Shown here one piece after another: positions 8,292-60,839 of a stretch of 64,000 nt of DNA. Both the position numbers and the translations under genes were made by a program. Each line of letters begins with the position of its first letter. Position 1 is the first letter of the stretch. The stretch is taken from the NCBI GenBank assembly GCA_017305665.1, contig JAFKKH010000017.1, positions 186,001-250,000 on the forward strand, in the 5' to 3' direction. Source of the DNA: Hyphomicrobiales bacterium. Its GTDB lineage: Bacteria > Pseudomonadota > Alphaproteobacteria > Rhizobiales > Xanthobacteraceae. The notes beneath the pieces are model-generated. The model had not been told where the DNA came from. It did not search any database and saw only the letters and a program-made list of their open reading frames with translations.

Positions 8292-11200
8292 AGGCCCCCC
8301 GTCCCGTTCATCCCGACGCCAGCGCGCGCCAGCAGCGGGCGTCCGATCCGGCCACATCGGTGTTCGTCTCCGCCAATGCCGGATCTGGCAAGACCCACGT
8401 GCTGGTTCAACGCGTGATCCGCCTGTTGCTCAACAACGTCGATCCGGTGCGCATCCTTTGCATCACCTTCACCAAGGCCGCCGCCGCCAACATGTCGGAG
8501 CGGGTGTTCTCCACTCTGGGACACTGGGTGACGCTCGACGACGACGCCTTGGACGCCGCGCTGCGCGATACCGGCATCGCCCGTCCGGATGCCAAGGCAC
8601 GTCAGCGCGCGCGGCAACTATTCGCGGCGGCGCTTGAAACGCCGGGCGGGTTGAAGGTGCAGACCATCCACGCGCTCTGCACGCGGCTGCTGCAGCAGTT
8701 CCCGTTCGAGGCGCGGGTGCCGGCGCGTTTCACCGTGCTGGACGAGCGCGACCAGACCGAGATGATGGAGCGCGCAAGCCTCGGCGTCATGCTGGCAGCG
8801 TCGCAAAACCCGGACAGTCCCGCTGGACGCGCGCTGCAATATGCCATGGGCGCCGCAGCCGACGTGACGTTGCGCGACGTGGTCAATCAGGCCTGCCTCA
8901 GCCGCGATCATTTCGTGGCATGGACGACGGAACGCAGCATCGAACAAGCGATCAGGGATGTGGCCGATGCCGTCGGCGTCGATCCCGATGATCGCATCGA
9001 AGATGTCGAGCGCGAGATCGTCGACGGACCTTATTTACCGCGCGCGGAATGGGACTCGCTCACCGCGGTTCTGGACACGGGCAACAAGTCCGACATTGAA
9101 CAGGCCCGTCGCCTGCGTGAGGCGCGCGCCATGGTCGGTGACGCCGCGCAGGTGGACCGCTACCTGGACGTGTTCCTGACCGGGACGTCCGAGCCGCGCA
9201 AATCCTTCGTCACCAAGAAGATCAGCGATGGCAGACCGGACATCGCCGCCATGCTCGACCGGGAATGCCAGCGCGTGATCGGGCTGCTCGACCGCCGCCG
9301 CGCGCTGAACGTCCGCGATCGCACGCAATCCCTGCTCGTCATCGCTACTGCGGTCGCCGCCAATTATCGGCGCGAGAAGCTGGAACGCGGCCTGCTCGAT
9401 TATGACGACCTGATCGACAAGACGCTTCAGATGCTGGACCAGACCTCGCCGGGCTGGGTGCATTACAAACTCGACCGCGGCGTCGATCACGTGCTGATCG
9501 ACGAAGCGCAGGATACCAGCCCGAGACAGTGGGACATCGTCGAGCGCATCATCGCGGACTTCACGTCAGGCGAAGGCGCGCGCGAGGGCGTCAAGCGCAC
9601 CATGTTCGCGGTCGGCGACGAGAAGCAGTCTATTTTCTCCTTTCAGGGCGCCGCGCCGCGCGAATTCGACGATCGGCGCCGCAAGCTGGAGCAGAAATTC
9701 CGCGACGCCGAACTACCGTTCCGCAAGGAGGACTTCATCTATTCGTTCCGCTCGGGGAAGACGATCCTCGAGTCGGTCGATCATGTGTTCCGTGACGAGG
9801 CGATCTATACCAGCATCCATGCGGTCGGCGCCCATCCGGTGCATGAATCGCTGGCCGATGCCGCCCCCGGCGTGGTCGATCTCTGGAGTCTGGAGGAGCG
9901 CGACAAGCGCGAGGAGATCGAAGGCTGGCGCGCGCCGTTCGATGCCGTCTCGGAGACCAGCCCCGAGGTCAAGCTCGCCCGCCGCATCCAGACCGAGATC
10001 AAGGCGCTGATCGCGCAGCGCACGATGACCGGCCCCATGGGCAACCGCCGCCCGCTCAGCTACGGCGATATCCTGGTGCTGGTGCGCCGGCGCGGCAATG
10101 CGTTCGACGCCATCATCCAGGCGCTCAAGCAATCCGGCATTCCCGTCGCCGGCGCCGACCGCCTCAAGCTGACCGAGCACATCGCCATCATCGACCTGAT
10201 GAACCTCGCCGATGCACTACTGTTGCCGCAGGACGATCTGGCGCTGGCAGTGGCGCTGAAGAGCCCGTTGTTCGGCCTCGATGACGACGACCTGTTTTCG
10301 ATCGCTTACAAGCGCAAGGGATCGCTGCGCGACGCGCTCGCCGACCATGCGGCCACCGACGGCAAATTCCAAAACGCCCTGAACCGCCTGAAGGCGTGCG
10401 AGAGCCGCGCGACGCAGGACACACCATTTGCTTTCTATGCGTGGCTGCTCGGCGGAGATCGAGGGCGGCTGCGCATCCTGCAGCGGCTCGGTCACGAAGC
10501 CAACGATGCGCTCGACGAATTTCTCGAACTCGCGCTGGCGTATGAGCGCAAGGCGCCCGCGTCCCTGCAAGGCTTTATGGCCTGGCTGCGCGCCGCCGAC
10601 ACCGAGGTGAAGCGCGATATGGAGATCTCGCGCGACGAAGTGCGCGTCATGACGGTGCACGGCGCGAAGGGGTTGGAGGCTTCCGTCGTTTTTCTTGCTG
10701 ACACCGTGACGTCGCCCGCCGATACCGAGCGTCTCAGTCTGATCCGGATGCCGCGCGGCAACGCGGCGCCGCACGCGGCCGGCGTCACCGTCTGGGCCGG
10801 CAGGAAGGCCGAGGATCCGCCCGCTGTGGTGAATGCCCGCGCGGCCATGATCGGGGAGACCGAGCACGAATATCGCCGCCTGCTTTACGTGGCCATGACG
10901 CGCGCGGCGGATCGGCTGATCATCGGCGGCTGCAAGCCCGGCAATCGCAAGGATGTGCGTCAGTACGCATGGTACGACCTGATCGACAAAGGCCTCGGCA
11001 ACTCCGGCCTCACGATGCGGGAGATCGAGACCCCGGCCGGGACGGTCAAGCGTTACAGCCGGCCGGGAGACACTGAACCGGCCGCTGCCGGTCAGGCCGC
11101 ACCAGCCGTGGCGGCGCGGATCGCATTGCCGCCGTGGCTGCGCACGATGGCCACGCCGGAGGCACCTTCCGATCAATTGCTACGGCCGTCCGATACGGAC

Positions 11201-11776
11201 GACAACACGCACCATGCCGTTCGCGCCGGCGAATCCCTGGACACTCGCAGCCGCGCGCTACAGCGTGGCACGCTGGTGCATCGCCTGTTGCAGTCGCTGC
11301 CCGATATTCCGCAAGAGCGCCGCCGCGACACCGCGCTGGCCTTTCTCGCGCGCAACGCGGGCGACTGGAGTACGGCCGAACGCGACGCCCTGGCGACGCA
11401 AGTGCTGGCGCTGATCGCGGACCCGAAATTCGCTCCGGTGTTCGCGGCCGGAAGCCGTGCCGAAGTCGCCATCGCCGGCCGCGTGACGACGCGGCGGGGA
11501 CAGTCCGCCCTCGTCTCCGGCCAGATCGATCGTCTTGTGGTGACCCCGGACGCGGTCCTGATCGTCGATTTCAAGACCAACCACGCGCCGCCTTCAAAGG
11601 TCGCCGACGCACCGCAGGTCTACATCCGCCAGCTCGCGCTCTACCGCGCGGTGCTCGGCAAGCTCTACCCCGGCCGTCCGATCAAGGCGGCGCTGCTTTG
11701 GACCGAAACGCCTGAAATGATGGAGATTTCAGGCCCTGCTCTGGACGCGGAGCTGGCCGCCATCATCTCCATGTGA
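8285..11776 (+). CDS. addA: Double-strand break repair helicase AddA
   Basis: This 1163-residue UvrD-type helicase-nuclease is the partner of AddB. It shows motif I SANAGSGKTHVL near residue 30, motif II DEAQDTSP, helicase motif VMTVHGAKGLEA, motif VAMTRAADRL and a C-terminal RecB-like nuclease (GQIDRLV, then VDFKTNH). The ATG at 8285 overlaps the addB TGA. A frame start at 8252 lies well inside addB and is rejected. Like addB, it acts in homologous recombination and repair in the cytoplasm. Helicase and nuclease motifs look intact. Confidence 0.95.
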   Translation: MVKAPRPVHPDASARQQRASDPATSVFVSANAGSGKTHVLVQRVIRLLLNNVDPVRILCITFTKAAAANMSERVFSTLGHWVTLDDDALDAALRDTGIARPDAKARQRARQLFAAALETPGGLKVQTIHALCTRLLQQFPFEARVPARFTVLDERDQTEMMERASLGVMLAASQNPDSPAGRALQYAMGAAADVTLRDVVNQACLSRDHFVAWTTERSIEQAIRDVADAVGVDPDDRIEDVEREIVDGPYLPRAEWDSLTAVLDTGNKSDIEQARRLREARAMVGDAAQVDRYLDVFLTGTSEPRKSFVTKKISDGRPDIAAMLDRECQRVIGLLDRRRALNVRDRTQSLLVIATAVAANYRREKLERGLLDYDDLIDKTLQMLDQTSPGWVHYKLDRGVDHVLIDEAQDTSPRQWDIVERIIADFTSGEGAREGVKRTMFAVGDEKQSIFSFQGAAPREFDDRRRKLEQKFRDAELPFRKEDFIYSFRSGKTILESVDHVFRDEAIYTSIHAVGAHPVHESLADAAPGVVDLWSLEERDKREEIEGWRAPFDAVSETSPEVKLARRIQTEIKALIAQRTMTGPMGNRRPLSYGDILVLVRRRGNAFDAIIQALKQSGIPVAGADRLKLTEHIAIIDLMNLADALLLPQDDLALAVALKSPLFGLDDDDLFSIAYKRKGSLRDALADHAATDGKFQNALNRLKACESRATQDTPFAFYAWLLGGDRGRLRILQRLGHEANDALDEFLELALAYERKAPASLQGFMAWLRAADTEVKRDMEISRDEVRVMTVHGAKGLEASVVFLADTVTSPADTERLSLIRMPRGNAAPHAAGVTVWAGRKAEDPPAVVNARAAMIGETEHEYRRLLYVAMTRAADRLIIGGCKPGNRKDVRQYAWYDLIDKGLGNSGLTMREIETPAGTVKRYSRPGDTEPAAAGQAAPAVAARIALPPWLRTMATPEAPSDQLLRPSDTDDNTHHAVRAGESLDTRSRALQRGTLVHRLLQSLPDIPQERRRDTALAFLARNAGDWSTAERDALATQVLALIADPKFAPVFAAGSRAEVAIAGRVTTRRGQSALVSGQIDRLVVTPDAVLIVDFKTNHAPPSKVADAPQVYIRQLALYRAVLGKLYPGRPIKAALLWTETPEMMEISGPALDAELAAIISM

Positions 11777-11945
11777 GGAACCTTGACCCGGCAAGGGCGC
11801 GTTCATAGGTTGGATGGCATGATATCGTGTGGTGGTTCTGACATTCGCAAAAATGGCTCGCTGCGAAGTAATGCGAATGTTAGAACCGGAACATGAGCTG
11901 CGCGATTCTTTCACGGCGCGCATCACCGATGTAACGAGGTATTCC

Positions 11946-12266
11946 ATGGCTGTTGGCAAGGTTTCGGACACCGATTTCGAATCGGAAGTGCTCAAGGCGA
12001 ACGGCCCGGTTGTGGTCGATTTCTGGGCCGAATGGTGCGGCCCGTGCCGCATGATCGCACCCGCGCTCGACGAGATTGCCGGCGCCATGGGCGACAAGGT
12101 CAAGATCGTCAAGCTGAACGTCGACGAGAGCCCGAAGACGGCCTCGAAGTACGGCGTGATGTCGATCCCGACCCTGATGATCTTCAAGGGCGGCGAGATG
12201 GCTTCGCGCCAGGTCGGTGCCGCGCCGAAGCAGAAGCTGCAGCAGTGGATCAACGGCGCGGTCTGA
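11946..12266 (+). CDS. trxA: Thioredoxin
   Basis: This is a standard 106-residue thioredoxin with the redox motif WAEWCGPCRM and the cis-Pro segment MSIPTLM. It reduces protein disulfides using electrons from thioredoxin reductase. The start at 11946 (MAVGKVSD) is preceded by an acgaggta Shine-Dalgarno-like stretch. A frame extension to 11829 adds an unconserved leader. It lies 170 bp after addA and is followed by a strong terminator. Confidence 0.96.
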   Translation: MAVGKVSDTDFESEVLKANGPVVVDFWAEWCGPCRMIAPALDEIAGAMGDKVKIVKLNVDESPKTASKYGVMSIPTLMIFKGGEMASRQVGAAPKQKLQQWINGAV

Positions 12267-12292
12267 TTTTTCTGCGCTTTGGAAATTTACGA

Positions 12293-12320
12293 ACGGCCGG
12301 CTCATCGCCGGCCGTTTTTG
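12293..12320 (+). terminator. Rho-independent terminator of trxA
   Basis: A perfect 9-bp GC-rich stem (12293-12301 with 12307-12315, acggccggc pairing gccggccgt) with a 5-nt loop is followed by a T5 run. It lies 26 bp after the trxA stop, between convergent trxA and folC. Confidence 0.9.
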
Positions 12321-12355
12321 TTTGTTGGTCGCTCTCTGGGAGAGGGAAGGAAGAA

Positions 12356-13684
12356 TCAGCCCGGCAGCGTGCCGTTCTCGGCCAACACGTGGCCTGCAAG
12401 ATAGAGCGATCCCGCGATCAAAATGCGCGGCGGGATTTCGTAAGCCAGCCGCGTCAGCGATTGCAGCGCCGCCGCGACATCAGACGCGGCTTCGACGCGC
12501 ATGCCGAGCGCGCGCACGGCGTCCGCCAGCACGTCGGGCGGCATCGCGTTCTCGGTCTCCGGAATCGGCACGACGATGATGTGGCGGGTCAGCCCGGCGA
12601 AATTGGCCAGAAAGCCCCTCGCATCCTTGGTGCCCATCATGCCGACGATCAGCACCAGCGGCCGCGACACCCGCTCCTCGAGATCGCCGAGCGCCGCCGC
12701 AGCTACCCGCCCACCGTCGGCATTGTGCCCGCCATCGAGCCAGATCTCGGCGTCGCGCGGCGCTCGATCGACCAGCCTGCCCGACGTCAGTCGCTGCATC
12801 CGCGCCGGCCACTCGGCGCCGGTGACGCCGCGCTCGTAGGCCGCCGTATCGATCCTGAACAATGTCTGCGTCCGCAGCGTTGCGATCGCAAGCCCGGCAT
12901 TGTCGAACTGATGCCGCCCGAACAGCCGCGGCGCGGCGAGATCGAGCAGGCCGCGCTCGTCCTGATAGACCAGCCGTCCGCGCTCGACGCTGACATGCCA
13001 GTCCTGGCCGGCGGCATGCAACGGACTGCGCATCTGCTTCGCCCGCTGCTCGATCACGGCCTGCGCTTCCGGCAACTGCTCGGCGGTGATCACCGGCACG
13101 CCACGCTTGATGATGCCGGCCTTCTCGCCGGCGATCTGGATCAGCGAATTGCCGAGAAATTCGATGTGATCGATGCCGATGGGCGTGATGACGCAGGCGA
13201 GCGGCGCCTCAACCACATTGGTGCTGTCGAGCCGGCCGCCGAGCCCGACCTCCAGCAGCAGTACGTCGGCAGGAACCTTCGCGAACAGCAGAAACGCCGC
13301 CGCGGTCTTCATCTCGAATTCAGTGATGGGTTCGCCGCCATTGACACGTTCGCATTCGAGCAGCGCGTCGCGCAAGTCATCGTCGCCGACCAATGTCCCT
13401 GCGAGTCGCACACATTCGTTGAGTCGCACCAGATAGGGCGAGGTATAGGCGTGCACCTTCAAGCCTGCGGCTTCGAGGATCGCGCGCAGGTACGCGACCG
13501 TCGAACCCTTGCCGTTGGTACCGGCGACATGGATCACCGGCGGCAGCTTGCGTTCGGGATGATCCAGCCGGGCCAGGATGCGCTGCATCCGATCGAGAGT
13601 CAGATCGATCTTGTTCGGATGCAGCTTCGACACCCGCGCGACGACGTCGCCGAGCGGCGGCTGGGCGGACGAGCTGGCGCTCAC
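12356..13684 (-). CDS. folC: Dihydrofolate synthase / folylpolyglutamate synthase
   Basis: This 442-residue Mur-ligase-family enzyme adds glutamate to dihydropteroate and then to folates. It has the FolC P-loop [10 protein letters not shown] (near residue 50) and the following [10 protein letters not shown] segment. Further motifs are [11 protein letters not shown] and, near the C-terminus, LDGGHN. The start is GTG and overlaps the accD stop (GTGA), so it is coupled to accD, an order usual in this lineage. It is the last gene of the trp-accD-folC run. Confidence 0.95.
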
Positions 13685-14616
13685 GCCTGAGGCGCTGGCG
13701 CCGCTGTTTCAGCGGCAGGCACCGGCTCGGCTGCGACCGGCGTGATGGATGGCTTGACCGCATCGACCGCGGGCGCCTTGGTCAGCAGGCGGCATAGCCG
13801 CGCCAGCGTCGGGCGCAACTCGTGGCGATGCACCACCATGTCCACCATGCCGTGGTCCTTCAGGTATTCGGCGCGCTGGAAACCGTCCGGCAATTTTTCA
13901 CGGATGGTCTGCTCGATGACGCGCGCACCGGCAAAACCGATCAGCGCACCGGGCTCCGCGATCTGGATGTCGCCGAGCATGGCATAGGATGCCGTGACGC
14001 CGCCGGTGGTCGGATTGGTCAGTACCACGATGTAGGGTTGGCCGGCCTCGCGCAGCATCTGCACCGCGACGGTAGTGCGCGGCAACTGCATCAGCGACAG
14101 AATACCTTCCTGCATCCGCGCACCGCCGGAGGCCGCGAACACGATGAACGGGCATTTCTTTTCGACCGCAAGCTCGAGCCCGCGCACGATGGCCTCGCCC
14201 GCCGCCATGCCGAGCGAACCGCCCATGAAATCGAAATCCTGCACCGCGACCACGACGCCAGCATTTTCAAGTTTGCCGAACCCGACCTTCACCGAGTCGT
14301 TCAGCCCGGTCTTGGCCCGCGCATCCTTGATGCGGTCGACATATCTGCGCTCGTCGCGAAACTTCAGCGGATCGGCGGTGACGTCGGGCAGCGCCACGTC
14401 ATACCAGGTCTCATTGTCGAAGATCGACTTCATGCGCGCGTTCGCGCCCATGCGCATGTGATAGTTCGAGCCGGGAATGACAAACTGGTTGCTCTCGACG
14501 TCCTTGTAGAACACGAGTTGCCCGGTATCCGGACACTTGATCCAGAGATTTTCCGGAGTTTCGCGCTTGAGGATGCTGCGAATCTTGGGCCGGACAACGT
14601 TGGTCAACCAGTTCAT
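13681..14616 (-). CDS. accD: Acetyl-CoA carboxylase carboxyltransferase subunit beta
   Basis: This 311-residue beta subunit of carboxyltransferase transfers carboxyl from biotin-BCCP to acetyl-CoA in fatty-acid synthesis. The crotonase-like core is complete, with the GGARMQEG oxyanion segment. The N-terminal Zn-ribbon present in E. coli (four Cys) is degraded: only one Cys remains (IKCPDTG) and the second pair is replaced by VIPGSNYH. The C-terminus has an Ala/Pro-rich tail of about 30 residues. The AccA partner is not in the window. Confidence 0.95.
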
Positions 14617-14727
14617 GGTCTGCTCCGAATCGCACAGCGCCTGCGGCGCATGGCTCCTGACTATATGGCCGTCCCGGCCAGACCGGGCAACGGCGGATTC
14701 CGGAATAAAATACCCCGCAATTGCGGC

Positions 14728-15564
14728 TTATTCGGCGGCCTGCCGCGCCGACCGGACACCGCCGGCCAGCGAAGCCACGAGGTCGACGACCGCACCGACT
14801 GTTTTTGCCGTCGCCTTGCCCTCGGCATCGAGGCTCTTGGCCAATACGTCGACCAGCGCCGTGCCGACCACCGCACCATTGGCACGCTCGGCGATGGCCT
14901 GCGCCGCCTCCGGCGTGCGGATACCGAACCCGACGCAGACCGGCAGCGGCGTGTGGCGTTTGATGCGGGCAACCGCCGTACCGACCGCAGATGAATCCGC
15001 CGCCGCGCTGCCGGTGATGCCGGTGATCGAGACGTAGTAGACGAAGCCCGACGTGTTCGCGAGCACCGCGGGCAGACGCTTGTCGTCGGTGGTCGGCGTC
15101 GCCAGGCGAATGAAGTTCAGCCCGGCCTTCATCGCGGGAATGCACAACTCGGAGTCTTCCTCCGGCGGCAGATCGACGATGATCAGGCCGTCGACGCCGG
15201 CAGTCTTCGCATCGGCCAGAAATCTATCGACGCCATAGATGTAGATCGGGTTGTAGTAACCCATCAGCACGATCGGCGTCGCATTATCGTCCTTGCGGAA
15301 GGCGCGCACGAGATCGAGCGTCTTCTTCAAGGTCATGCCCGCCTTCAGCGCGCGCAGGCCGGCGGCCTGGATCGCCGGACCGTCCGCCATCGGATCGGTG
15401 AAGGCCATCCCGAGTTCGATGATGTCGGCGCCGGCCTTCGGCAGCGCCTTTATGAGATCGAGCGACGTCGCCATGTCAGGATCGCCCCCCATCACGTAGG
15501 TGACGAAGGCCGAGCGTCCCTGCGTCTGCAGCTCGGCAAAGCGTGTGTCGATACGAGTGGTCAC
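14728..15564 (-). CDS. trpA: Tryptophan synthase alpha subunit
   Basis: This 278-residue TIM-barrel subunit cleaves indole-3-glycerol phosphate to indole, which is channelled to TrpB. The catalytic Glu lies in IIELG and the catalytic Asp in FTDPMADGP; the usual Pro before Phe is Ala here (GMAFTDP). The phosphate loop appears as VGFGIRTPE and VVGTALVD. Its start overlaps the trpB stop by 4 bp, so the two subunits are co-translated. Confidence 0.96.
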
Positions 15565-52330: not shown

Positions 52331-52352
52331 GAGTGGTGCCCAGGAAAGGACT
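52331..52352. other. Distal attachment site of the island
   Basis: This is a perfect copy of the tRNA-Leu 3' end (core tggtgcccaggaaaggact plus gag). Sequence diverges immediately on both sides. It marks the far boundary of the island, beyond the NTF2-like gene. Confidence 0.9.
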
Positions 52353-52411
52353 GGATCGCCACCGCTCAAATCGACTGATTTGCTAGGGTTTTTGAGCCCA
52401 CCGGCATTTTG

Positions 52412-52434
52412 TGTGTACCGGGTTTGTGTACCGG
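52412..52434 (+). other. Left arm-type integrase-binding repeats
   Basis: Two direct copies of tgtgtaccgg (52412-52421 and 52425-52434) are spaced 13 bp apart. The 17-bp ccgg-g-tttgtgtaccgg unit (52418-52434) recurs with one mismatch at 60684-60700 inside the other end. Paired short repeats inside both att ends are the usual arm sites of tyrosine integrases. Confidence 0.65.
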
Positions 52435-52629
52435 AGACAACGGTCAGAGGGGCGACGGTGTCATCAAGACCTGATCAACCATAATGATCTTGTCGCCCGT
52501 CGTTGCCCGTCCTAAGTTTGTCGTGCTTCGAATCGCTGTAGCCCGCCCGAGCTTTGCTCCGCCAGGCCGAAAGTGATGGTAGGCAACCAACCCACGTAGC
52601 TCCGGCTACCTCGTGAAGGATCAGATGTC
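52435..52629. other. Leader region of the GHKL ATPase gene
   Basis: Together with the att and arm sites this gap totals 437 bp from 52193. No gene is seen. The segment presumably holds the ATPase promoter; aagga lies about 11 bp before the ATG. Confidence 0.5.
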
Positions 52630-54498
52630 ATGACCACCCGCGCAATGCAGGTGGCGAATATTGCGTTCCTTTTGGATCGCCTCGCCGCCGATACTCCCCC
52701 CAATCAGCAGATCCGAGAACTGACGGAGAACGCCCTCGAGGCTATCGAGAGGCGCCAGAAAGCTGGAGACGCATCCGAAGGCGTCATCCGATGGGATGTT
52801 GACTGGGACAATCTCAAACGTACGGGGGAGTACAAACTCTCCATCACGGACAACGGCGATGGCATGACGTCGCAGCAGATGCTGGATTATTTGAACGCTC
52901 TGGCCGTGCAAGGAGCCAACCAAACCCAAGGCATTTCGCAGAACTTTGGCGTTGGGGCCAAGATTACCGCTCTCCATCGCAATAGCCATGGGCTTGTTTA
53001 TCAGTCTTGGCACGATGGTAAGGGGTCGATGGTGAAACTTCACCGCGACGACAAGGAAGGTGTTTATGGCCTGGCCTCCTTCGAGCTTTCCGATGGACCC
53101 GATTGGACACCTCGCATCAAGGACACTTTCAAGCCTTCCGTCATCGACCGGAATGGCACGAAGGTGACGCTGCTCGGCATTTCAGAGGAGAACAACACGT
53201 GCTTTCCGCCCGAGGGGCGGGGGATGAATTGGTTGATCACTTACTTGACGAACCGGTATTTCCGGCTCCCCGAGAACTTGAGGCTTCAAGTTCGAGTGCT
53301 GACGCAGAACGAAGAGGATTGGCCTTCGGAGGAACCGTCCGCGTCGACAAAGACCTTCAACTTTCAGACCGTCGCAGGCTCGAAGGCGTTGTTCGACCAG
53401 TACGCAGAGGCGAAAGGCACGGTGTCCCTCGCAACTGCAGACGCTCATTGGTGGGTGTTCGCCGACCCGAAAGAAGACTCGAAGAAAATGAGTACCCGCG
53501 GCGGTCGAACCTGCAAGGTTGGAATCGTGTTTCAGGACGAGGTTTACGTTCATCTCACGCCCCCAATCGCTCGTCGAATACTTGCAAGCTTCGGGATCGT
53601 GTTCGGGGCAGACCACGTCGTGATCTATATCGAGCCGAAGAAAAGCTTGGAGGTTCGCGCCGATACAGCCCGGAGCCGGATCATCATCAACGGGGAAGAC
53701 GTCCAGGAAGCCAATTGGTTTGAGGTTTGGGGTGCAGAGTTCCGGGAAAAGATGCCGCCCGAAATCAAGGCCAAGATTGATGAGATTATGGCCAAGACTG
53801 AGCGTGACCCTGATGGCAAGACACGTGAACGCATCCTAGAACGGTTACAGCGCATCCGTGATTTGCTGAAGCCGACTCGATACCGACGTGATCCGCAAGG
53901 CACGTTGCGTGCCGCCGGTGAGGCACCTGGCGGAGCATCTGGCTCCGCCGGCGATACTCAGCGTGAGGGCACCTCGACAGGAGGCGGGCGCCGCGGAGGT
54001 ACCTCGAGCGACGACTATCTCGCGGACCTGGTCGAATCCGATGGTGAGTTGGCTCGTCAGGTTGTGGTTTCGACCAAGGAGCCGTCAGTGAAATGGATCT
54101 CCCGCGCGGATGGGACACGGGAGGAGGGCGAATTGGAAGACCTCGCAGCCGAAATCGTGGGCGACAGCCTTTCAGGTGACATGGTCAAGGCCAATCGAGA
54201 TTTTCGAGGATATCGTGACTTGCTTGGATTTTTCTCGAAGGAGTTTAATCCTGGGGGCGATCCGGCAATCAACCGGAAAATCGTGGAGTACATCGAAGAG
54301 TGGATGGAGGGCCAGCTCGTCGAGGCCATCATGACGGTGAGAAATCTGACCAATGGTCGAACATGGACGCCATCGGATATCGATCGTGCCCTTTGCTCGC
54401 ATGCTTTGACCACGGTGATGATGACTCGCTTCCACGTTGTTGAACGGGTGAAGCGCTCGCTTTCCTCCGATATATCGAAGCCGTCCAAAGCGGCGTAA
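52630..54498 (+). CDS. GHKL (MORC/Hsp90-type) ATPase, island cargo
   Basis: This 622-residue protein has a clear Bergerat ATP-binding fold at its N-terminus. The N box is RELTENALEAIE (E33, N34), G1 is TDNGDGM (74-79) and G2 is NFGVGAK (105-111). A transducer-like domain with basic residues follows to about residue 370. A low-complexity Gly/Ser/Arg linker (about 420-470) leads to a C-terminal domain without recognisable similarity. Such ATPases (MORC, MutL, Hsp90) dimerise on ATP; bacterial MORC-like members are linked to defence and DNA transactions. It is the first gene of the island and probably acts with the methyltransferase downstream. No specific function can be assigned. Confidence 0.85.
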   Translation: MTTRAMQVANIAFLLDRLAADTPPNQQIRELTENALEAIERRQKAGDASEGVIRWDVDWDNLKRTGEYKLSITDNGDGMTSQQMLDYLNALAVQGANQTQGISQNFGVGAKITALHRNSHGLVYQSWHDGKGSMVKLHRDDKEGVYGLASFELSDGPDWTPRIKDTFKPSVIDRNGTKVTLLGISEENNTCFPPEGRGMNWLITYLTNRYFRLPENLRLQVRVLTQNEEDWPSEEPSASTKTFNFQTVAGSKALFDQYAEAKGTVSLATADAHWWVFADPKEDSKKMSTRGGRTCKVGIVFQDEVYVHLTPPIARRILASFGIVFGADHVVIYIEPKKSLEVRADTARSRIIINGEDVQEANWFEVWGAEFREKMPPEIKAKIDEIMAKTERDPDGKTRERILERLQRIRDLLKPTRYRRDPQGTLRAAGEAPGGASGSAGDTQREGTSTGGGRRGGTSSDDYLADLVESDGELARQVVVSTKEPSVKWISRADGTREEGELEDLAAEIVGDSLSGDMVKANRDFRGYRDLLGFFSKEFNPGGDPAINRKIVEYIEEWMEGQLVEAIMTVRNLTNGRTWTPSDIDRALCSHALTTVMMTRFHVVERVKRSLSSDISKPSKAA

Positions 54499-54655
54499 GA
54501 ACAAGCGCTCGACCGAAACTCGCCTCGGTCGAGCGCAAATCTAAATTGGCATACGCTCGCGCTTGCTGCCATGCCGCTCGCGGTCCTGGTAACTATCTCT
54601 TAACTAAGCTAAGAACAAAATCAGAACATGATTCGGCTTGGTGGGATAGACTACA

Positions 54656-55300
54656 ATGCAAAATCGGTCGCACGCCGTTATGGCACAGAGGGCGGAGGCG
54701 GCGGACAGCCCCGATGACTTTCCGACCCCACCATGGGCGACCAGAGCCCTATTAGAGCATGTCATCAACGACAGGCATCCTCTCGCAGGGTGCTCCGCGC
54801 TTGAGCCCGCTTGCGGTGCTGGGCATATGTCCCAGGTCCTCAAGGAATATTTCGGACATGTCGAGGCTTCGGATGCACATTCCTATGGATACGGTCCGGT
54901 CCGCGATTATCTGTCCGTCCCGTATGAGGCCAGCACTGTCGATTGGGTAATTACGAATCCGCCGTTTCGACTGGCTGAAGAGTTCGTTCATCGCTCACTG
55001 ATAGTTGCCCGTGTTGGCGTCGCGGTTCTGGTCCGTACGGTTTTTATCGAGAGTTCCGGGCGCTATCGCGCGTTGTTTGAAAAGCGCCCTCCCACAAAAT
55101 TCGCTCAATTTGTCGAACGCGTTCCGATGGTGCGGGGCAGGCTCGACAAGAAGGCGTCGACAGCTACTGGATATGCCTGGCTCGTTTGGGAGAAAGACGT
55201 CAAATCTACCCCGCAGCTCGTATGGATTCCCCCATGCCGCAAACGGCTGGAACGCGAGACCGACTATTATCCAGCTTCTCTGGTCTCTTCCAAAGCTTGA
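54656..55300 (+). CDS. Stand-alone adenine-type DNA methyltransferase
   Basis: This 214-residue class I SAM methyltransferase has DFPTPPWATRALLEHV near the N-terminus, as in phage-type adenine methylases. It carries motif I EPACGAGH (50-57) and the catalytic NPPF (101-104) of N6-adenine or N4-cytosine DNA methyltransferases. There is no target-recognition domain and no adjacent restriction endonuclease, so it is an orphan enzyme. It lies 157 bp after the ATPase gene in the same direction. Its 3' end overlaps the convergent HTH gene by 34 bp. ATG at 54680 is a shorter start. Confidence 0.82.
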   Translation: MQNRSHAVMAQRAEAADSPDDFPTPPWATRALLEHVINDRHPLAGCSALEPACGAGHMSQVLKEYFGHVEASDAHSYGYGPVRDYLSVPYEASTVDWVITNPPFRLAEEFVHRSLIVARVGVAVLVRTVFIESSGRYRALFEKRPPTKFAQFVERVPMVRGRLDKKASTATGYAWLVWEKDVKSTPQLVWIPPCRKRLERETDYYPASLVSSKA

Positions 55301-55590
55301 TCGATATCGGAAACCGCTGCCAGCAGAGCTTCTTTGGCTCGCTCGAGAGCATCGATAGCCCCCTGGGCTGACCTACCTGACAAATACGGGCCGGGAGGTG
55401 GAAGCCGATCCAATGGCGCAGGCTGAACCCAGGTAAACTTATCTCCATTGGAAATTTCACCTATTCGTCCCCCGTTTACGCCAAACCATGCCGCGATGTC
55501 GTGTTGTCGATCGCCCCGCTGGATCATCCCTTTCACCATGGCGGCATCTTCTTCACTCAAGCGAATCCCGCTAGCCTCCGCTCGTGTCAT
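55267..55590 (-). CDS. Small HTH-like island protein
   Basis: This 107-residue protein has an N-terminal helix-turn-helix-like segment (SEEDAAMVKGMIQRGDRQ, then HDIAAWFGVNGGRIGEIS, about residues 12-48). A Pro-rich linker and a C-terminal coiled-coil-like helix (ALERAKEALLAAVSDIDQAL) follow. Good gaggag Shine-Dalgarno. It is convergent with the methyltransferase and lies downstream of the DGQHR gene on the same strand. It may be a regulator of the island; no family is confidently recognised. Confidence 0.7.
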   Translation of the reverse strand: MTRAEASGIRLSEEDAAMVKGMIQRGDRQHDIAAWFGVNGGRIGEISNGDKFTWVQPAPLDRLPPPGPYLSGRSAQGAIDALERAKEALLAAVSDIDQALEETREAG

Positions 55591-55673
55591 GACTAGGCTC
55601 CTCTCTCAGATTTCTGATTCACAGATTTCTTTCGACAAAAATGTTTTGCACTTCGGATTTTCTGACGGATGGA

Positions 55674-55697
55674 GAAGGCCCCGTTTCCGGGGCCTTC
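55674..55697 (-). terminator. Hairpin after the DGQHR gene
   Basis: A perfect 10-bp stem gaaggccccg/cggggccttc (55674-55683 with 55688-55697) with a tttc loop begins 5 bp past the DGQHR stop. T-runs are weak on both strands, so it may terminate or stabilise the transcript. Confidence 0.6.
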
Positions 55698-55702
55698 AAG
55701 GT

Positions 55703-57091
55703 TCAAGCAGCGTTCTCGACCGCTTCATCCTCGTGACGGTTGGGGAGCTTCAACTTCCACCGAATGATATCCCCCAGAACCGGGTAGATGTCGTTGTGCT
55801 TAGCACCGAAGCGCATCAAACCCTTGGTGTCAGTTGAACCGAGATCGCGGTTCGCATTGTCGTGGGGCAGGTAGTCGCTGAGGCCGGGCAGCTTTTTTTG
55901 CCGTTCTGCCGCAGTCATTTCATAGGCCCGCCACATCGGGTTGTTGTGAGAGAAATCCAGATTGGGAATACCATCCAGCAATTCCTCCAGAGCGACTTCG
56001 TCGGATTTTTTGCTCATCGCGAAGTCATAAGTCAGCTTGGCCAGCGCCTTGAGCACGACCGGCTGAGCGGCGACGGTATTCAACTTGGCTTTAGCCTCAC
56101 CGAATCCCGAAATGGACGAAACCGCTTCCCAGAACCGGCGAGCCGTGTCCTCCATCTTGTCCACTTGGCTGGGGACTGCGCCACGGGGATTCGTCTTGTT
56201 CAAGATCAAGATGGAGTTGATGGCAACCAGGTCTTTGCGGGCCATCGAGCCGTCGTGATTGCTCCACTCCACGATGTCCTTCTCCACGACAGGCGCGGTC
56301 AAAATCCCTTCCCCCATCAGTGTGTCCTTGATGAAGACGTTGACCGGATTTGAGTTGTCGAAATCAAAGGCCATGCTTGCCGAGACACTCTTCCCTTTGT
56401 TGTTCAGGTCGGCGAAAAGCTGCCGGCGCTGCTCCGCATCAAGGTTCAGGTGTGCCTCGATCGTCACCGTGCAGTAGTTAAGCGCCAACTGCAGAGCATC
56501 ACGCCAGACCTCCATCTCGGCAGGAGGGATATGTTCCCCCGGCTTACCAGGAAAGAGTGAACCACGCTTGGGATAGGCCTGTGTGGCGCGGACGTTGCGC
56601 AGGAAATCCAGCACGGTATTCATCGCGTACCGGCGGTGCTGGCCGTCGACGACCCACATCAGGGTCGAATGCGAAACACCAATGCGCAGCGAAATCTCAT
56701 CGCCGGCCGGGTTGACCTGTTTCTGCGGCTTCAGATCGTTCATCGTCACCGGAAGATTCACAACGATGGGCTGCAGCGCGTAATAGCGCTGGGGTCCCAG
56801 CACCTTCAGAACTTCCTCGTGATGAGAACTGTCTTTACCTTCAGCCTTGCGCAGATTGGCAGCCGCATGGACCAGGCCCTTCAGGATGTACTGAGCCAGA
56901 AGCCCGGCATGGTTCTTGTCCAGTGGACGCTGAGACACTTCATCGGGGTCCACCGCTCCGTCGTTTGGAACGTCGGACATGTCGATGAAGCGAGCGATAG
57001 GAAGGCGCATGGTGAGGGTCTGCGCACCGAGATTGTAGCTGGCAAGAACGTCTTCGCGGCTTGCCGTGGCTGACGAAAGGTCATAAGTCAT
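55703..57091 (-). CDS. DGQHR-domain (DndB-like) protein
   Basis: This 462-residue protein carries the DGQHR motif at residues 149-153 (WVVDGQHRRYA). It also has the family block QRRQLFADLNNKGKSVS followed by DFDNSNPVN. DGQHR proteins include DndB, the regulator of phosphorothioate DNA modification, and related ParB/sulfiredoxin-like nucleotide-binding proteins found in many mobile elements. No dndA, C, D or E genes are present, so a role in DNA sulfuration is unlikely here. The aaaggat Shine-Dalgarno is good. Six iterons lie 64 bp upstream of the start. Function unknown; a role in regulating the island or in defence is inferred. Confidence 0.82.
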   Translation of the reverse strand: MTYDLSSATASREDVLASYNLGAQTLTMRLPIARFIDMSDVPNDGAVDPDEVSQRPLDKNHAGLLAQYILKGLVHAAANLRKAEGKDSSHHEEVLKVLGPQRYYALQPIVVNLPVTMNDLKPQKQVNPAGDEISLRIGVSHSTLMWVVDGQHRRYAMNTVLDFLRNVRATQAYPKRGSLFPGKPGEHIPPAEMEVWRDALQLALNYCTVTIEAHLNLDAEQRRQLFADLNNKGKSVSASMAFDFDNSNPVNVFIKDTLMGEGILTAPVVEKDIVEWSNHDGSMARKDLVAINSILILNKTNPRGAVPSQVDKMEDTARRFWEAVSSISGFGEAKAKLNTVAAQPVVLKALAKLTYDFAMSKKSDEVALEELLDGIPNLDFSHNNPMWRAYEMTAAERQKKLPGLSDYLPHDNANRDLGSTDTKGLMRFGAKHNDIYPVLGDIIRWKLKLPNRHEDEAVENAA

Positions 57092-57117
57092 AGTAGTTAT
57101 CCTTTAAGTTGCGATAT

Positions 57118-57144
57118 GGCCGGGTAGACCCAATCTACTCGGCC
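57118..57144. other. Inverted repeat in the DGQHR leader
   Basis: An 11-bp stem ggccgggtaga/tctactcggcc (57118-57128 with 57134-57144, one G-T pair) has a 5-nt loop. It is 26 bp before the DGQHR start, in the untranslated leader. On the plus strand it is followed by a T-rich tract, so it could also stop antisense transcripts. Confidence 0.65.
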
Positions 57145-57154
57145 ATTTCTTTTT

Positions 57155-57276
57155 CCAGGGATTTGAAAATCGCCTCCCTGGGATCTTTAATAAAGGACCT
57201 GGCGACTTAATACAATACCCCAGGGACTATATTTTTTCTCCCTGGAAAATGTTTTTAGACCCCTGGAGACTAAATG
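57155..57276. repeat. Six iterons of 21-22 bp upstream of the DGQHR gene
   Basis: Six direct repeats each contain CCWGG, starting at 57155, 57177, 57198, 57220, 57241 and 57262 (steps of 22, 21, 22, 21, 21 bp). Each is followed by an A/T-rich tail approximating rrayTwwaw. Spacing equals two DNA turns, so all sites face the same side of the helix. This fits a cooperative operator or an iteron-type origin. The array lies between the recombinase stop and the DGQHR promoter. Confidence 0.8.
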
Positions 57277-57284
57277 TCAGGAGA

Positions 57285-58037
57285 TTATGCTTTTGAAACC
57301 TGACGGAGGTGCCTTGGTACCACTCTCCGAGAAGCTTTAGTTTCGCCTAACATCCGGGCGACCGCAGTGGCGGCGAAAGGCTTTCCGGAATGACTGACAT
57401 AGCCTGCCCGAGCCAGTTCCGCCGCGATCTCTCTTAGCGACCTCCGTCCGCCCTTCGGGGACTTACGACGGAGCCGCTTTACCAGCGCAATCATGCTGCC
57501 TGCGTTGTCTCGCACATCGATTTCAGCGTGGCTCTTTCGACCCTCGACTTTTACGCCCGTGGCTCGCTTGCGATCCCGCGCAGCCTTCAACTTGCCGACC
57601 AGCCGCGCCTTCTCGAGCTGGGCGAACACACCAGCGATCTGGCGTATGGCGATCTTGAACGGGTCGTTCGTCTCCGTGAGGTTGTCGCCGGAGCTGGTAA
57701 GCACCCGAACGCCACGCTCGATCAGCGCAATGATGCCAGCTTCTTGGACGATCAGTTGGCGCGCAAACCGTGAAGCATCCTCGACCACTACAGTCCGCAC
57801 ACCATTGGTTTCGATCCTGTCCAGCAAGGCTGAGAATCCAGGCCGGCTTTCTATCGGGTCCGCGCCGCTGACATCGTGGTCGTAGAACTCCTCCGTGATC
57901 TCCAGATCCGCCCGCTTCGCAAATACCTCGATCGCGGCCCGCTGGCGCTTGTCACTGTCCTTGTCGGCCCCAACATTCGCCGCACTCGACGTCCTCAGAT
58001 ATGCAATTGCCTTTGTCAATTGCGCTGATTTTACCAT
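57285..58037 (-). CDS. Serine recombinase (resolvase/invertase family)
   Basis: This 250-residue protein has the serine recombinase catalytic domain at the N-terminus, with nucleophile Ser17 in YLRTS. Conserved Arg residues lie in DASRFARQ and the helix E region KARLVGKLKAARDRKR. A C-terminal HTH segment GRRSLREIAAELARAG-YVS follows. The size fits the resolvase/invertase group rather than large serine integrases. An imperfect 28-bp palindrome lies just upstream. It could resolve island multimers or invert a segment; no partner site is proven. Confidence 0.9.
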   Translation of the reverse strand: MVKSAQLTKAIAYLRTSSAANVGADKDSDKRQRAAIEVFAKRADLEITEEFYDHDVSGADPIESRPGFSALLDRIETNGVRTVVVEDASRFARQLIVQEAGIIALIERGVRVLTSSGDNLTETNDPFKIAIRQIAGVFAQLEKARLVGKLKAARDRKRATGVKVEGRKSHAEIDVRDNAGSMIALVKRLRRKSPKGGRRSLREIAAELARAGYVSHSGKPFAATAVARMLGETKASRRVVPRHLRQVSKA

Positions 58038-58054
58038 AAGTTAATCCTATTATT

Positions 58055-58082
58055 TGTTACGTTTTCTTGAGAAATCGTAACA
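58055..58082. other. Imperfect 28-bp palindrome upstream of the serine recombinase
   Basis: Half-sites tgttacg (58055-58061) and cgtaaca (58076-58082) flank an inner tttc/gaaa palindrome; 12 of 14 positions pair. It lies 18 bp before the recombinase start. Its size fits a subsite I-type crossover site or an autoregulatory operator. Confidence 0.65.
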
Positions 58083-58972
58083 GAACTGGCCTCTGACAGC
58101 CAGCGAAATCATTCGCGTCCTATTCTCTCCCTGATCTCGATCAACCCTCAGCACCGGTGAAAGGTCATGGCCACCCAGGCCGTCAAATTATGGCATAAAT
58201 ATGTTTATGCCTATTTTTTGCCACAATATGCCCTCTCTCGCCTGGGTTATTTTTCTCACGAATCTGCAAAAGGGCCATTTTTAGCGCCTCGCAGCCCGCG
58301 AAAGACTAAGGTATTGGATGACCTAGTTTTTCCACAATTGTGTTCTACATACGTTCTTATAGACACCTGAGCCTCGCGGGCGGTCATGTGAACGACAGCG
58401 CGAGGTACCGTGACGGGTACTGTGGGGTGCGATCATCCACCCGAAGGGCACCGCGAAAGCTCGAAGCCCATGGATCGCCGACGGATCGCCAATGCCGTCG
58501 AGAAGTAGCGAGCAATCTTTGTCCGCCAGGCGAGGCGAGATGAGGTGCCTATGCGAGGGGCCGGCTCCGGGGTTCTAACCCAGCCACCAACATCGTCGAG
58601 GTAGCGGGTCGACCGTGGTCAGCATCAGCTGCCCTGCGGGGGACCCGCTATTGCCTGAAGCTCAGGGCACTCTCCAGGGTTCTAGACCTACTCACTGTGA
58701 CTGATAGTAGTCTCCTCCAGACCCTAGATCCCCTCCAGAACCCTAAATCGACCCAAAAAACGGGATCGCCAGCAACAATCCGTCAGAGAAAAATACCTCG
58801 GAACATGCGCATCCCATAAAAGGCGAATTTCGATTTTTTCTGCCCCGCTCGCCTTCCAGAGATCCGCCGGACCAGAAAATGCCCTGAATGGCCCAGCGAA
58901 GGCCGCCCATGCGTTTGGGCTCCGGCCCGATGTTCCCTATATGTTCTACAAACAAACGGATCAGCGGCCTTC
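58083..58972. other. 890-bp non-coding, structured region of the island
   Basis: No gene is supported between the serine recombinase and the integrase 3' end. It holds an inverted repeat tagcgggtc/gacccgcta (58602-58651), a ctcgcg/cgcgag stem near 58374-58405 and three spaced ctccag...ccct elements (58672, 58715 and 58733). Short frames here lack similarity and start signals. It may encode a structured RNA or hold recombination sites. Confidence 0.5.
58192..58217 (+). terminator. Terminator-like hairpin in the island
   Basis: A perfect 8-bp stem ggcataaa/tttatgcc (58192-58199 with 58204-58211) with loop tatg is followed by ta and T6. It would stop plus-strand transcription; no plus-strand gene ends nearby, so its role is unclear. 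Confidence 0.55.
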
Positions 58973-60671
58973 CTATAGCCCCTGATCCCCAAGCGAGGCA
59001 GCGGAGGGCAGTAACGGCACCGGCACCCGCCGGACCACGGCAGCCTTCATCTCGACCGAGTAATGCCGGTAGACGTCCGCCACCGACTTCTTGCCATGAC
59101 CGACGAGCCCATCGGCCAGACTGTCCGGCACTCCCAGCGCCACCAGCTCGGTTTTGAACCAATGCCGGAATGCATGACTTGGATCTTTTCGCCGATCTTG
59201 AAAGCCCGGTTGATCCCGGACCCATTCGGCCACTTTGCCGGCTACGCTCTTGGATGCATGAGCCCCTCTGCGGGTCGCCAGACGTAAAGTTGTAGAAGAG
59301 CGGCCCATCGCCCTTCGATCTCGCAAATTCCATGAACCCCTGCTCGATGAGGGACGGATGTAGCGGCATCGTCCTCTCGCTCCATACATTCTTCAATCGT
59401 CCTCCATCCTCGGCAGGCGCGATTTCGATGACCGGCATGCCCTCGATGGTTTTGACCCTTTGGCCCCACAGTTGCGCCACTTCCCCAATGCGCGATCCGG
59501 TCGTTGCCGCGAGCCACGGCAACCAGCGAAGGTTTGGATGGTCTTGGCTCTTTGCGAGTGAGAGGAGTTTCGCAGCTTCCTCTCGGGTATAGGCCAGCCG
59601 CTTTTCTCCGGCCCGCTCACGGCTGTGGGTCTTCACTCCCTCGGCAACATTCGATGCCAGCCTGCCATTCTGGACTTCATAGTTGAGCAGAGTGCTGAGC
59701 GAGGCGAGATGCCCGGCGTTGATCGTTTTCGATGCGAGGCTCCGTCCGACCAGATGATCCTTCCACGCGACGACATCGGATCTCTGTAGACGTCTGATCT
59801 CATCGTGGCCCAGGAACTCCCTCAGAGATTTGAAGTTACCGCGCCAGGTCATCAGCGTACTCGGCGCTGGCCGTGCCTCCCGTTTCCAATCCTCAAACGC
59901 CTGCGTGAAGGTCCGATTGCTCCTCTGTTCGAAGATCGGATACTGAGCAAGCCGGTGGTCTTCGCCGTAGTTGCCAGCGATATTGTCTTTGAGCCTCCGA
60001 ACGCCCGTATCGGTCGCATGCGCCACCAGCATGAGCAGGCGATTCCGCGTATCACCATCGACGACCTGTCCATTCTGAGTAAGGAGCCAGTCGGTAAGCA
60101 ACCCGAACCGCCGCTCCAGCCCTTCGTTGATGTCATCCGATCGGGGCAAGACGTTGATGCCAGCAGTTAGATCATCGCCGAAAAGCGCGACCGCCGTCCC
60201 TTGGTCATCCGGCATCTGACCGGGAATGATCGGTTCGACATCTGTGATTCGACCCTCCGCCACCGCTCGGTTCAGTGCCTTATGGGCGATCCAAACGTCA
60301 TTCGAGCCAGGATCCTCTTGGAATGCCTCCACGTATAGCTCATGGATGGCGCGGGCCAGCCCAAGCAACTGCTTATGAGTGAGCGACCGCGGGCCGGCAC
60401 GGATGGCCGCGAAGACCTTGTTCAATTCAGCCAACGCCACGCTCCGCCTGAACTCGGCTACATCATCCTCCCGAGTGCGCAGAGAGAATTTGATCTCCGC
60501 ACCAATCGTCACGGTGGTGATGAATGGTTGGCCGCCCATGAACTCTGGAAGTTGGATCAGGACGCGCCGGCTCATCCCACCGCGAGCTAGTACGTCGGCG
60601 GGCGTCCTGAGTCGGAAGATGTGTTTGGAGGAGTCCGTCCGTCGAGTGATGTGTGCCATTCGAAACGCCAT
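58973..60671 (-). pseudogene. int: Tyrosine integrase with a frameshift
   Basis: The N-terminal and core-binding part (from 60671, MAFRMAHITRRTDSS) reads through ATTGSRIGEVAQLW, holding catalytic Arg I. It then loses frame at a C4 run (59273-59276; G4 in the coding strand). The -1 frame immediately continues with AHASKSVAGKVAEW, then HAFRHWF (HxxR), LVGHGKKSVADVYRHYS (second His and Tyr nucleophile) and a stop at 58973. Removing one G restores a protein of about 565 residues. It may be a true mutation or a sequencing error. The frame continues upstream through tRNA-Leu to 60833, which is an artefact. Confidence 0.85.
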
Positions 60672-60683
60672 GAGCGCTGTGTC

Positions 60684-60700
60684 CCGGTTTTGTGTACCGG
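60684..60700 (+). other. Right arm-type integrase-binding repeat
   Basis: ccggttttgtgtaccgg matches the left arm copy (52418-52434) at 16 of 17 positions in the same orientation. It lies between the integrase start and the tRNA-Leu att core. Confidence 0.65.
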
Positions 60701-60752
60701 TCAGCGCCTCAACATCCCTGCAAATCAGCGGCTTCAATCGCTTAGGGGGGAG

Positions 60753-60839
<87 letters not shown>

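Follow-up and report, generated by a model that had tools for sequence, protein, structure and literature searches.

Do four neighboring genes on a genomic island of a Hyphomicrobiales bacterium act as a single defense module? The genes encode a GHKL ATPase, a DNA methyltransferase, a small helix-turn-helix (HTH)-like protein, and a DGQHR protein of the DndB family, and lie within a stretch of 64,000 nucleotides (contig JAFKKH010000017.1 of assembly GCA_017305665.1, positions 186,001 to 250,000; hereafter the window). A preliminary description of the window had put them forward together as a candidate defense or DNA-modification module. All four open reading frames (ORFs) are present where that description had placed them (Table 1) and form part of the cargo of an 8.4-kb island (52331–60771). 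The association of the ATPase with the DGQHR protein is real and recurrent and involves a minority of each family; the methyltransferase and HTH protein are a pair with a separate, phage ancestry. The island is therefore read, tentatively, as carrying a facultative two-gene unit of GHKL ATPase and DGQHR protein, with a phage-derived methyltransferase/HTH cassette lying between the two genes. A joint defense function is the best single reading of this unit, followed closely by a mosaic of cargo genes that act independently.

Linkage of the ATPase and DGQHR genes

Adjacency of the ATPase and DGQHR genes, the linkage that the preliminary description had singled out as informative, is seen again at L125, L178, and L241, three loci outside the window. 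In Keguizhuia sedimenti (L125), the two genes converge as they do in the window and stand 200 nt apart with nothing between them. On a contig of phage DNA (L178), which encodes an endolysin and a tail chaperone, the DGQHR gene precedes the ATPase gene on the same strand, with a gap of 62 nt. The same order and strand are observed in a locus from the window's own family (L241), where the gap is ∼92 nt if the ATPase starts at an internal methionine, and where integrase and primase genes are found nearby. A profile scan of other ATPase loci identified the DGQHR protein in L125, L241, and L192, the last being the L178 contig. It covered 112 loci, of which 66 had come from the genome scan and the first viral scan, while a second viral scan supplied 32, family genomes nine, and plasmids five; L192, L236, and L237 are repeats of others, and some stretches are short.

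In a tree of the ATPases (ORFs of <480 aa and repeat fetches left out), the window, L125, and the L178/L241 pair fall in three separate places, which indicates that three or more ATPase lineages acquired or retained the association. The linked DGQHR proteins likewise do not group in their own tree, from which ORFs of <350 aa and repeat fetches were left out (L231 was kept, though a repeat of L241). There, L241 lies within a supported alphaproteobacterial clade together with the unlinked L168, L172, and L246, and L125 is sister to copies from Pseudomonas phages. The places of the window and L178 are unsure, and the window row has a long branch.

A tRNA island could also have gathered unrelated accessory genes that act singly, their adjacency reflecting a shared mobile residence. 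Such a mosaic is a serious possibility, though we hold it as something short of probable. None of the other ATPase loci scanned has the four-gene set, small plasmids and Pseudomonas phages carry DGQHR genes unaccompanied by the ATPase, and many of the ATPase genes have only ordinary genes around them. Moreover, the hairpins near the 3′ ends of the window's ATPase and DGQHR genes and the opposite strands of the two genes suggest separate transcription. A mosaic accounts less readily for two genes that are both rare and yet lie side by side in three more loci, where the copies of each are divergent; two of these loci show the same-strand arrangement with short gaps. Among 361 genomes of the family, the ATPase was found in 10, the DGQHR protein in three, and both in two (the window's genome and G1006). 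Without the window's genome, the chance of this co-occurrence is 0.049, and that of co-occurrence with adjacency ∼3e-5 (random placement, 7000 genes assumed); in the genome scan, one adjacent case was observed against 2.5e-4 expected under random placement. All of these figures overstate the case, since they treat genes as placed uniformly and use rounded gene numbers (4500 and 7000), and mobile genes cluster.

The methyltransferase/HTH pair and the DGQHR family

Neither the methyltransferase nor the HTH protein was found, at E 1e-4, in any of the 112 other ATPase loci, and on this ground the four-gene module is not supported. The methyltransferase, with motifs EPACGAG and NPPF, matches PHROG 799 (3.6e-57) and is a full-length member of the C-terminal half of that family; no Pfam match above the cut-off was obtained. 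In viral contigs, 277 relatives were found, the best being 70% identical; 80 of these loci were kept, and the methyltransferase ORF was recovered in 79. In 11 of the 79, an HTH relative lies convergently and immediately downstream of the methyltransferase gene, overlapping it by up to 22 nt in nine and not at all in two, compared with 34 nt in the window. No HTH relative was found elsewhere in the 79 loci. This convergent neighbor, shared by the window methyltransferase and those 11 viral ones, indicates that the pair is a phage cassette. Unlike the phage copies, that of the window sits between ATPase and DGQHR genes in a tRNA island. No cognate restriction nuclease was recognized among the island ORFs scanned (Pfam, PHROG, PADLOC, and NCBIfam). 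The name HTH rests on weak PHROG matches (best 0.013) and on resemblance.

Could the cassette instead belong with the DGQHR gene? A DGQHR-HTH-methyltransferase unit would be a plasmid- or phage-type DNA-modification or anti-restriction cassette that protects its element, and the ATPase would be an unrelated neighbor. This explanation is unlikely. Its closest parallel is the 5.8-kb plasmid pHAE2 (L172), much of which consists of a DGQHR gene, a gene of 117 aa, a phage-type methyltransferase gene, and a resolvase gene. The pHAE2 methyltransferase belongs to PHROG 799 (36.6% identity over 183 aa) and is convergent with the 117-aa gene, which it overlaps, but the 117-aa protein has no detectable relation to the window HTH protein (9% identity). 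In L168, near a tRNA-Arg, the DGQHR gene is followed by that of an HTH relative (47% identity over 53 aa). HTH relatives were found at E 1e-3 in five of 21 genomes, including that of the window, and the other four are weak, so the L168 neighborhood is a mild clue only. The DGQHR gene is also near cytosine methyltransferase and Vsr genes in L173 (by annotation) and near a Vsr gene in L246. Against such a unit, most viral methyltransferase/HTH pairs show no DGQHR match in the stretches scanned, and the ATPase–DGQHR pairs of L125, L178, and L241 have neither methyltransferase nor HTH protein. The DGQHR gene of L246 (positions 8461-15324; G1024, the third DGQHR-bearing genome of the window's family) adjoins genes for Vsr, an AAA protein, a DUF2357-PDDEXK_7 protein, and, by eye, a cytosine methyltransferase.

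In most discussions, DndB features as a phosphorothioation regulator. The window's DGQHR protein is DndB-like, as had been proposed: it matches Pfam DndB (PF14072) with 108.8 bits, where the cut-off is 29.1, and the DGQHR motif is at residue 149. The NCBIfam DGQHR score of 57.0 is just below its cut-off of 58.85. The Pfam match would suit a protein left over from, or regulating, a DNA phosphorothioation (dnd) system, an explanation that is nevertheless extremely improbable. The score against the NCBIfam DndB equivalog (24.8) is far below the cut-off of 328, dndC and dndD have no match in the genome (dndA and dndE were not searched), and no TACGN10CGTA site is present in the window. A Dnd system proper is rejected on the same three results, and the earlier statement that no dnd genes accompany the island cargo holds for dndC and dndD. 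The protein falls in a distinct clade, PHROG 36010, known from Pseudomonas phages and small plasmids. Among 398 genomes of the phylum, the DGQHR protein was found in one, the window's own. A viral scan with the single protein gave no match and one with a DGQHR alignment gave 14; no sequence match was found in the PDB.

The ATPase, its neighbors, and a possible mechanism

The ATP-binding motifs of the ATPase are intact, with the N (RELTEN, residue 29), G1 (DNGDG, 74), and G2 (NFGVGAK, 105) boxes reported earlier and also a G3 box (GTKV, 176). The protein matches Pfam HATPase_c_3 (26.4 bits, cut-off 25), and R29, E30, N34, G76, G78, N105, G107, G109, and T177 are invariant in an alignment of 34 members. 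The MORC S5 motif (GhXhhpXXRhl) is absent from it; one of the 34 homologues has the pattern at residue 76, which does not lie in an S5 region. MORC membership is rejected on this absence, and the ATPase, previously labeled MORC-like, is better called paraMORC-like. In the general paraMORC architecture an S5-fold domain follows the GHKL domain; none of the 60 best matches listed extends beyond the GHKL part. No PD-(D/E)XK or DUF4263 nuclease domain was matched in the window ATPase with Pfam, NCBIfam, or PADLOC, and no PADLOC model matched the protein at all. The ExxxH motif of paraMORC2 is not conserved in the family: the window has EVYVH at residue 304, E304 is invariant, and the family consensus lacks the histidine. 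One of the 34 homologues weakly matched the PADLOC model PD-Lambda-5_A (E 0.0079), a result that was set aside.

Searching 84,980 species genomes with an alignment of three ATPases yielded 64 loci from many phyla, 26%–86% identical, some of which match over the N-terminal two thirds only. The closest relative, from Bradyrhizobium (L098, 86% identical), has an SLFN_AlbA_2 protein beside it, and no methyltransferase, HTH, or DGQHR match within its 22 kb; no DGQHR match was found in the stretches scanned for the next nearest, L099 and L100 (65% each). The ATPase was present in seven of 72,556 plasmid records and in none of 50,697 phage records, and a viral scan with the single protein gave no match. 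Weak matches in a class-sample scan (E ∼1e-4) were open frames of 630–700 aa, several of which we judged to be HtpG-like proteins.

The immediate neighbors of the ATPase were tallied for 76 loci (145 neighbors), leaving out five near-duplicate loci, ATPases with E >1e-40, and neighbors >1200 nt away or >1000 aa long. Defense-type contexts are among them: the Pfam families include AAA_21 (four), DndB (three, of which L178 was found via its DGQHR gene), and Vsr (three), counts that have no distant control; the GajA and Old models of PADLOC were matched four times each. Single loci have HamA (L103), DUF3800 (L106), or SLFN_AlbA_2 (L098) as a neighbor. Neighbor families resembling C5-methyltransferases and Vsr, named partly by eye, are shared by five of the 64 genome loci, and most loci are without them. 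The five (L120, L122, L123, L128, and L133) come from Phycisphaerae, Acidobacteria, and a Gemmatimonad. In L003 and L004, from plasmids of Agrobacterium and Dinoroseobacter, a small gene lies just upstream of the ATPase relative, and genes for an ATP-binding protein and a UvrD helicase follow, in a Gabija-like order. By eye, a conserved protein of ∼70–95 aa is encoded directly upstream of the ATPase gene in L242, L243, L003, L004, L005, and L113, and in L242 a gene of the metallo-beta-lactamase fold lies downstream.

Several observations weigh against a joint function of the ATPase and the DGQHR protein. Only three of the 112 other ATPase loci carry the DGQHR gene and only three of 22 other rows of the DGQHR tree are linked to the ATPase (flanks of 4–10 kb or less), most copies of either being without the other in the stretches scanned. 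L178 was first found by its DGQHR gene and is thus a biased draw, and its ATPase lies with that of L241 in one five-member clade; at 53% identity, the two may represent a single event. Orientation varies, being convergent in the window and L125 and same-strand in L178 and L241, and in the window the opposite strands and a spacing of ∼1.2 kb indicate that the two genes are not an operon. The window ATPase has no recognized C-terminal catalytic domain. Many ATPase loci contain ordinary genes only, with no recognizable defense neighbor, so that solitary use of the ATPase appears to be common. Finally, 386 PADLOC families were matched for the 145 neighbors versus 79 for 112 distant genes (at most two members in the listed rows), an excess with the caveat that the families overlap and that the counts are of families, not of matching proteins.

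On balance, the idea of a defense module survives for the ATPase–DGQHR pair and is not supported for the four-gene set. The pair may well act in anti-phage defense, a role we infer from its linkage and company. In the mechanism we envisage, the ATPase would dimerize on binding ATP and clamp shut around invading DNA or a DNA-bound complex, by analogy with what is thought for MutL-, MORC-, and paraMORC-type ATPases. The DGQHR protein would interact with the ATPase as a DNA reader or effector licensed by the clamp, acting through modification-sensitive DNA binding, cleavage, or hydrolysis of nucleoside triphosphates (NTPs). Where a DNA methyltransferase adjoins, its mark may help to distinguish self from foreign DNA. 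On a viral contig (L201, positions 9923-12888), the gene for a distant GHKL ATPase overlaps one for a protein with ParB_N and MT-A70 domains, which repeats the theme of ATPase, ParB-type protein, and methylase with other families. Conceivably, the pair is a two-gene anti-phage system not yet described: a clamp driven by ATP would gate a DNA reader or effector of the ParB/Srx superfamily, with an optional methyltransferase, and L201 would be a second design of this theme. We consider this proposal less likely than not.

ATPases of the paraMORC type were placed in restriction-modification neighborhoods (Iyer, Abhiman and Aravind 2008; PMC2292703). Prokaryotic paraMORC proteins resemble the window ATPase in having an N-terminal GHKL domain with all ATP-binding motifs and a length of roughly 600 aa, and resemble its family in their sporadic, mobile distribution (PMC2292703). 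Their neighbors include methylases and Vsr nucleases, as do those of a minority of the ATPase loci described here. In contrast, the window ATPase has no recognized C-terminal nuclease, TIR, or HEPN domain, an SF2 helicase was not seen as a recurrent neighbor, and the partner is a DndB-family protein, a combination not mentioned in the abstract or sections 4 and 5 of PMC2292703. Four publications contain both MORC and DndB; in passages of one of them, PMC3506569, MORC is mentioned only within a reference title. A GHKL ATPase in anti-phage defense is also known from VcSduA, which combines GHKL and Shedu nuclease parts in one protein; it requires an ATPase motif residue for anti-phage activity and is encoded on an island adjoining GrwAB (PMC12137116). 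The DUF262 domain of GrwAB resembles DGQHR (PMC4619093). VcSduA carries its own PD-(D/E)XK DUF4263 nuclease domain, which was not recognized in the window ATPase.

DndB and DGQHR proteins have been assigned to the ParB/Srx superfamily (PMC10853773 and PMC4619093), and the window protein shares the DGQHR motif and family profile of PF14072 (PMC4507180, PMC10853773, and PMC4619093). It differs from Dnd in its genomic setting, in missing the equivalog cut-off, and in its separate PHROG clade. In a literature search outside of which subscription papers and preprints lay, no publication was found that combines GHKL with DndB, that joins "GHKL ATPase" with ParB and anti-phage, or that joins "histidine kinase-like ATPase" with "defense system" and Vsr. 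If the ATPase and DGQHR protein do work together, a paraMORC-type ATPase gains a defined DndB-family partner, and the defense repertoire gains a system whose ATPase has no PADLOC model. Whether DndB is an NTPase or nuclease effector is left open by PMC10853773, and a natural two-gene unit lacking the rest of the dnd genes would allow a direct test. The locus also illustrates how two older pairings can combine to look like a four-gene "module."

The island and its insertion site

Table 1. Positions of genes, repeats, and hairpins of the island in the window
Feature	Position	Strand	Remarks
attL	52331..52352		22-bp exact copy of tRNA-Leu 3′ end
Paired TGTGTACCGG repeats directly inside attL, candidate recombinase arm sites	52412..52434		
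GHKL (paraMORC-like) ATPase, 622 aa	52630..54498	+	
Strong hairpin 3′ of ATPase gene	54505..54536		z -5.2; T-rich tail on minus strand
Phage-type DNA methyltransferase (PHROG 799), NPPF, 214 aa	54656..55300	+	
Small HTH-like protein, 107 aa	55267..55590	-	3′ end overlaps methyltransferase by 34 nt
Strong hairpin 3′ of DGQHR gene	55674..55697		z -3.9
DGQHR/DndB-family protein, 462 aa	55703..57091	-	
Strong hairpin between DGQHR and resolvase genes	57116..57146		z -3.4
Serine recombinase (resolvase), 250 aa	57285..58037	-	Pfam Resolvase 2.4e-23
Tyrosine integrase, frame broken	58743..60833	-	Arg box; ORF reads back into tRNA; likely start near 60671
Paired TGTGT(A/C)CCGG repeats directly inside attR	60678..60700		
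attR	60750..60771		inside tRNA-Leu 3′ end
tRNA-Leu(CAG), integration site	60753..60839	-	

The three features expected of a tRNA-integrated genomic island were found: an integrase, albeit with a broken frame, a 22-bp exact repeat of the tRNA-Leu 3′ end at either flank, and an empty site in relatives. In all seven same-genus stretches read (from eight relatives; a ninth genome is the window's own), the island is absent, the homology on the tRNA side ends at 60749–60753, and the ATPase, methyltransferase, HTH, DGQHR, and resolvase genes have no match. The G+C content (GC) is 0.547–0.575 in 1-kb bins between 52 and 58 kb and 0.586–0.689 in bins outside 51–61 kb. The island of transferred accessory genes with lower GC that the preliminary description proposed is thereby borne out.

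Beyond the four genes considered above, the island carries a serine resolvase gene and the tyrosine integrase gene. The HxxR and Tyr boxes of the integrase are in an ORF of another frame (58973–59389), apart from the frame of the Arg box. The break is either a mutation or a sequencing error, and the island may consequently no longer excise by itself.

No convincing common operator was found upstream of the ATPase, methyltransferase, and DGQHR genes, only 11-mers with one mismatch. Neither promoter-like sites (three found, 3.6 expected) nor terminator-like sites (seven found, 8.4 expected) exceed chance. Nevertheless, all or nearly all of the shuffled sequences fold less well than the three hairpins. 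No match to the arm-repeat patterns occurs on the reverse strand of the window, and on the forward strand the only matches are the two repeats at each end of the island.

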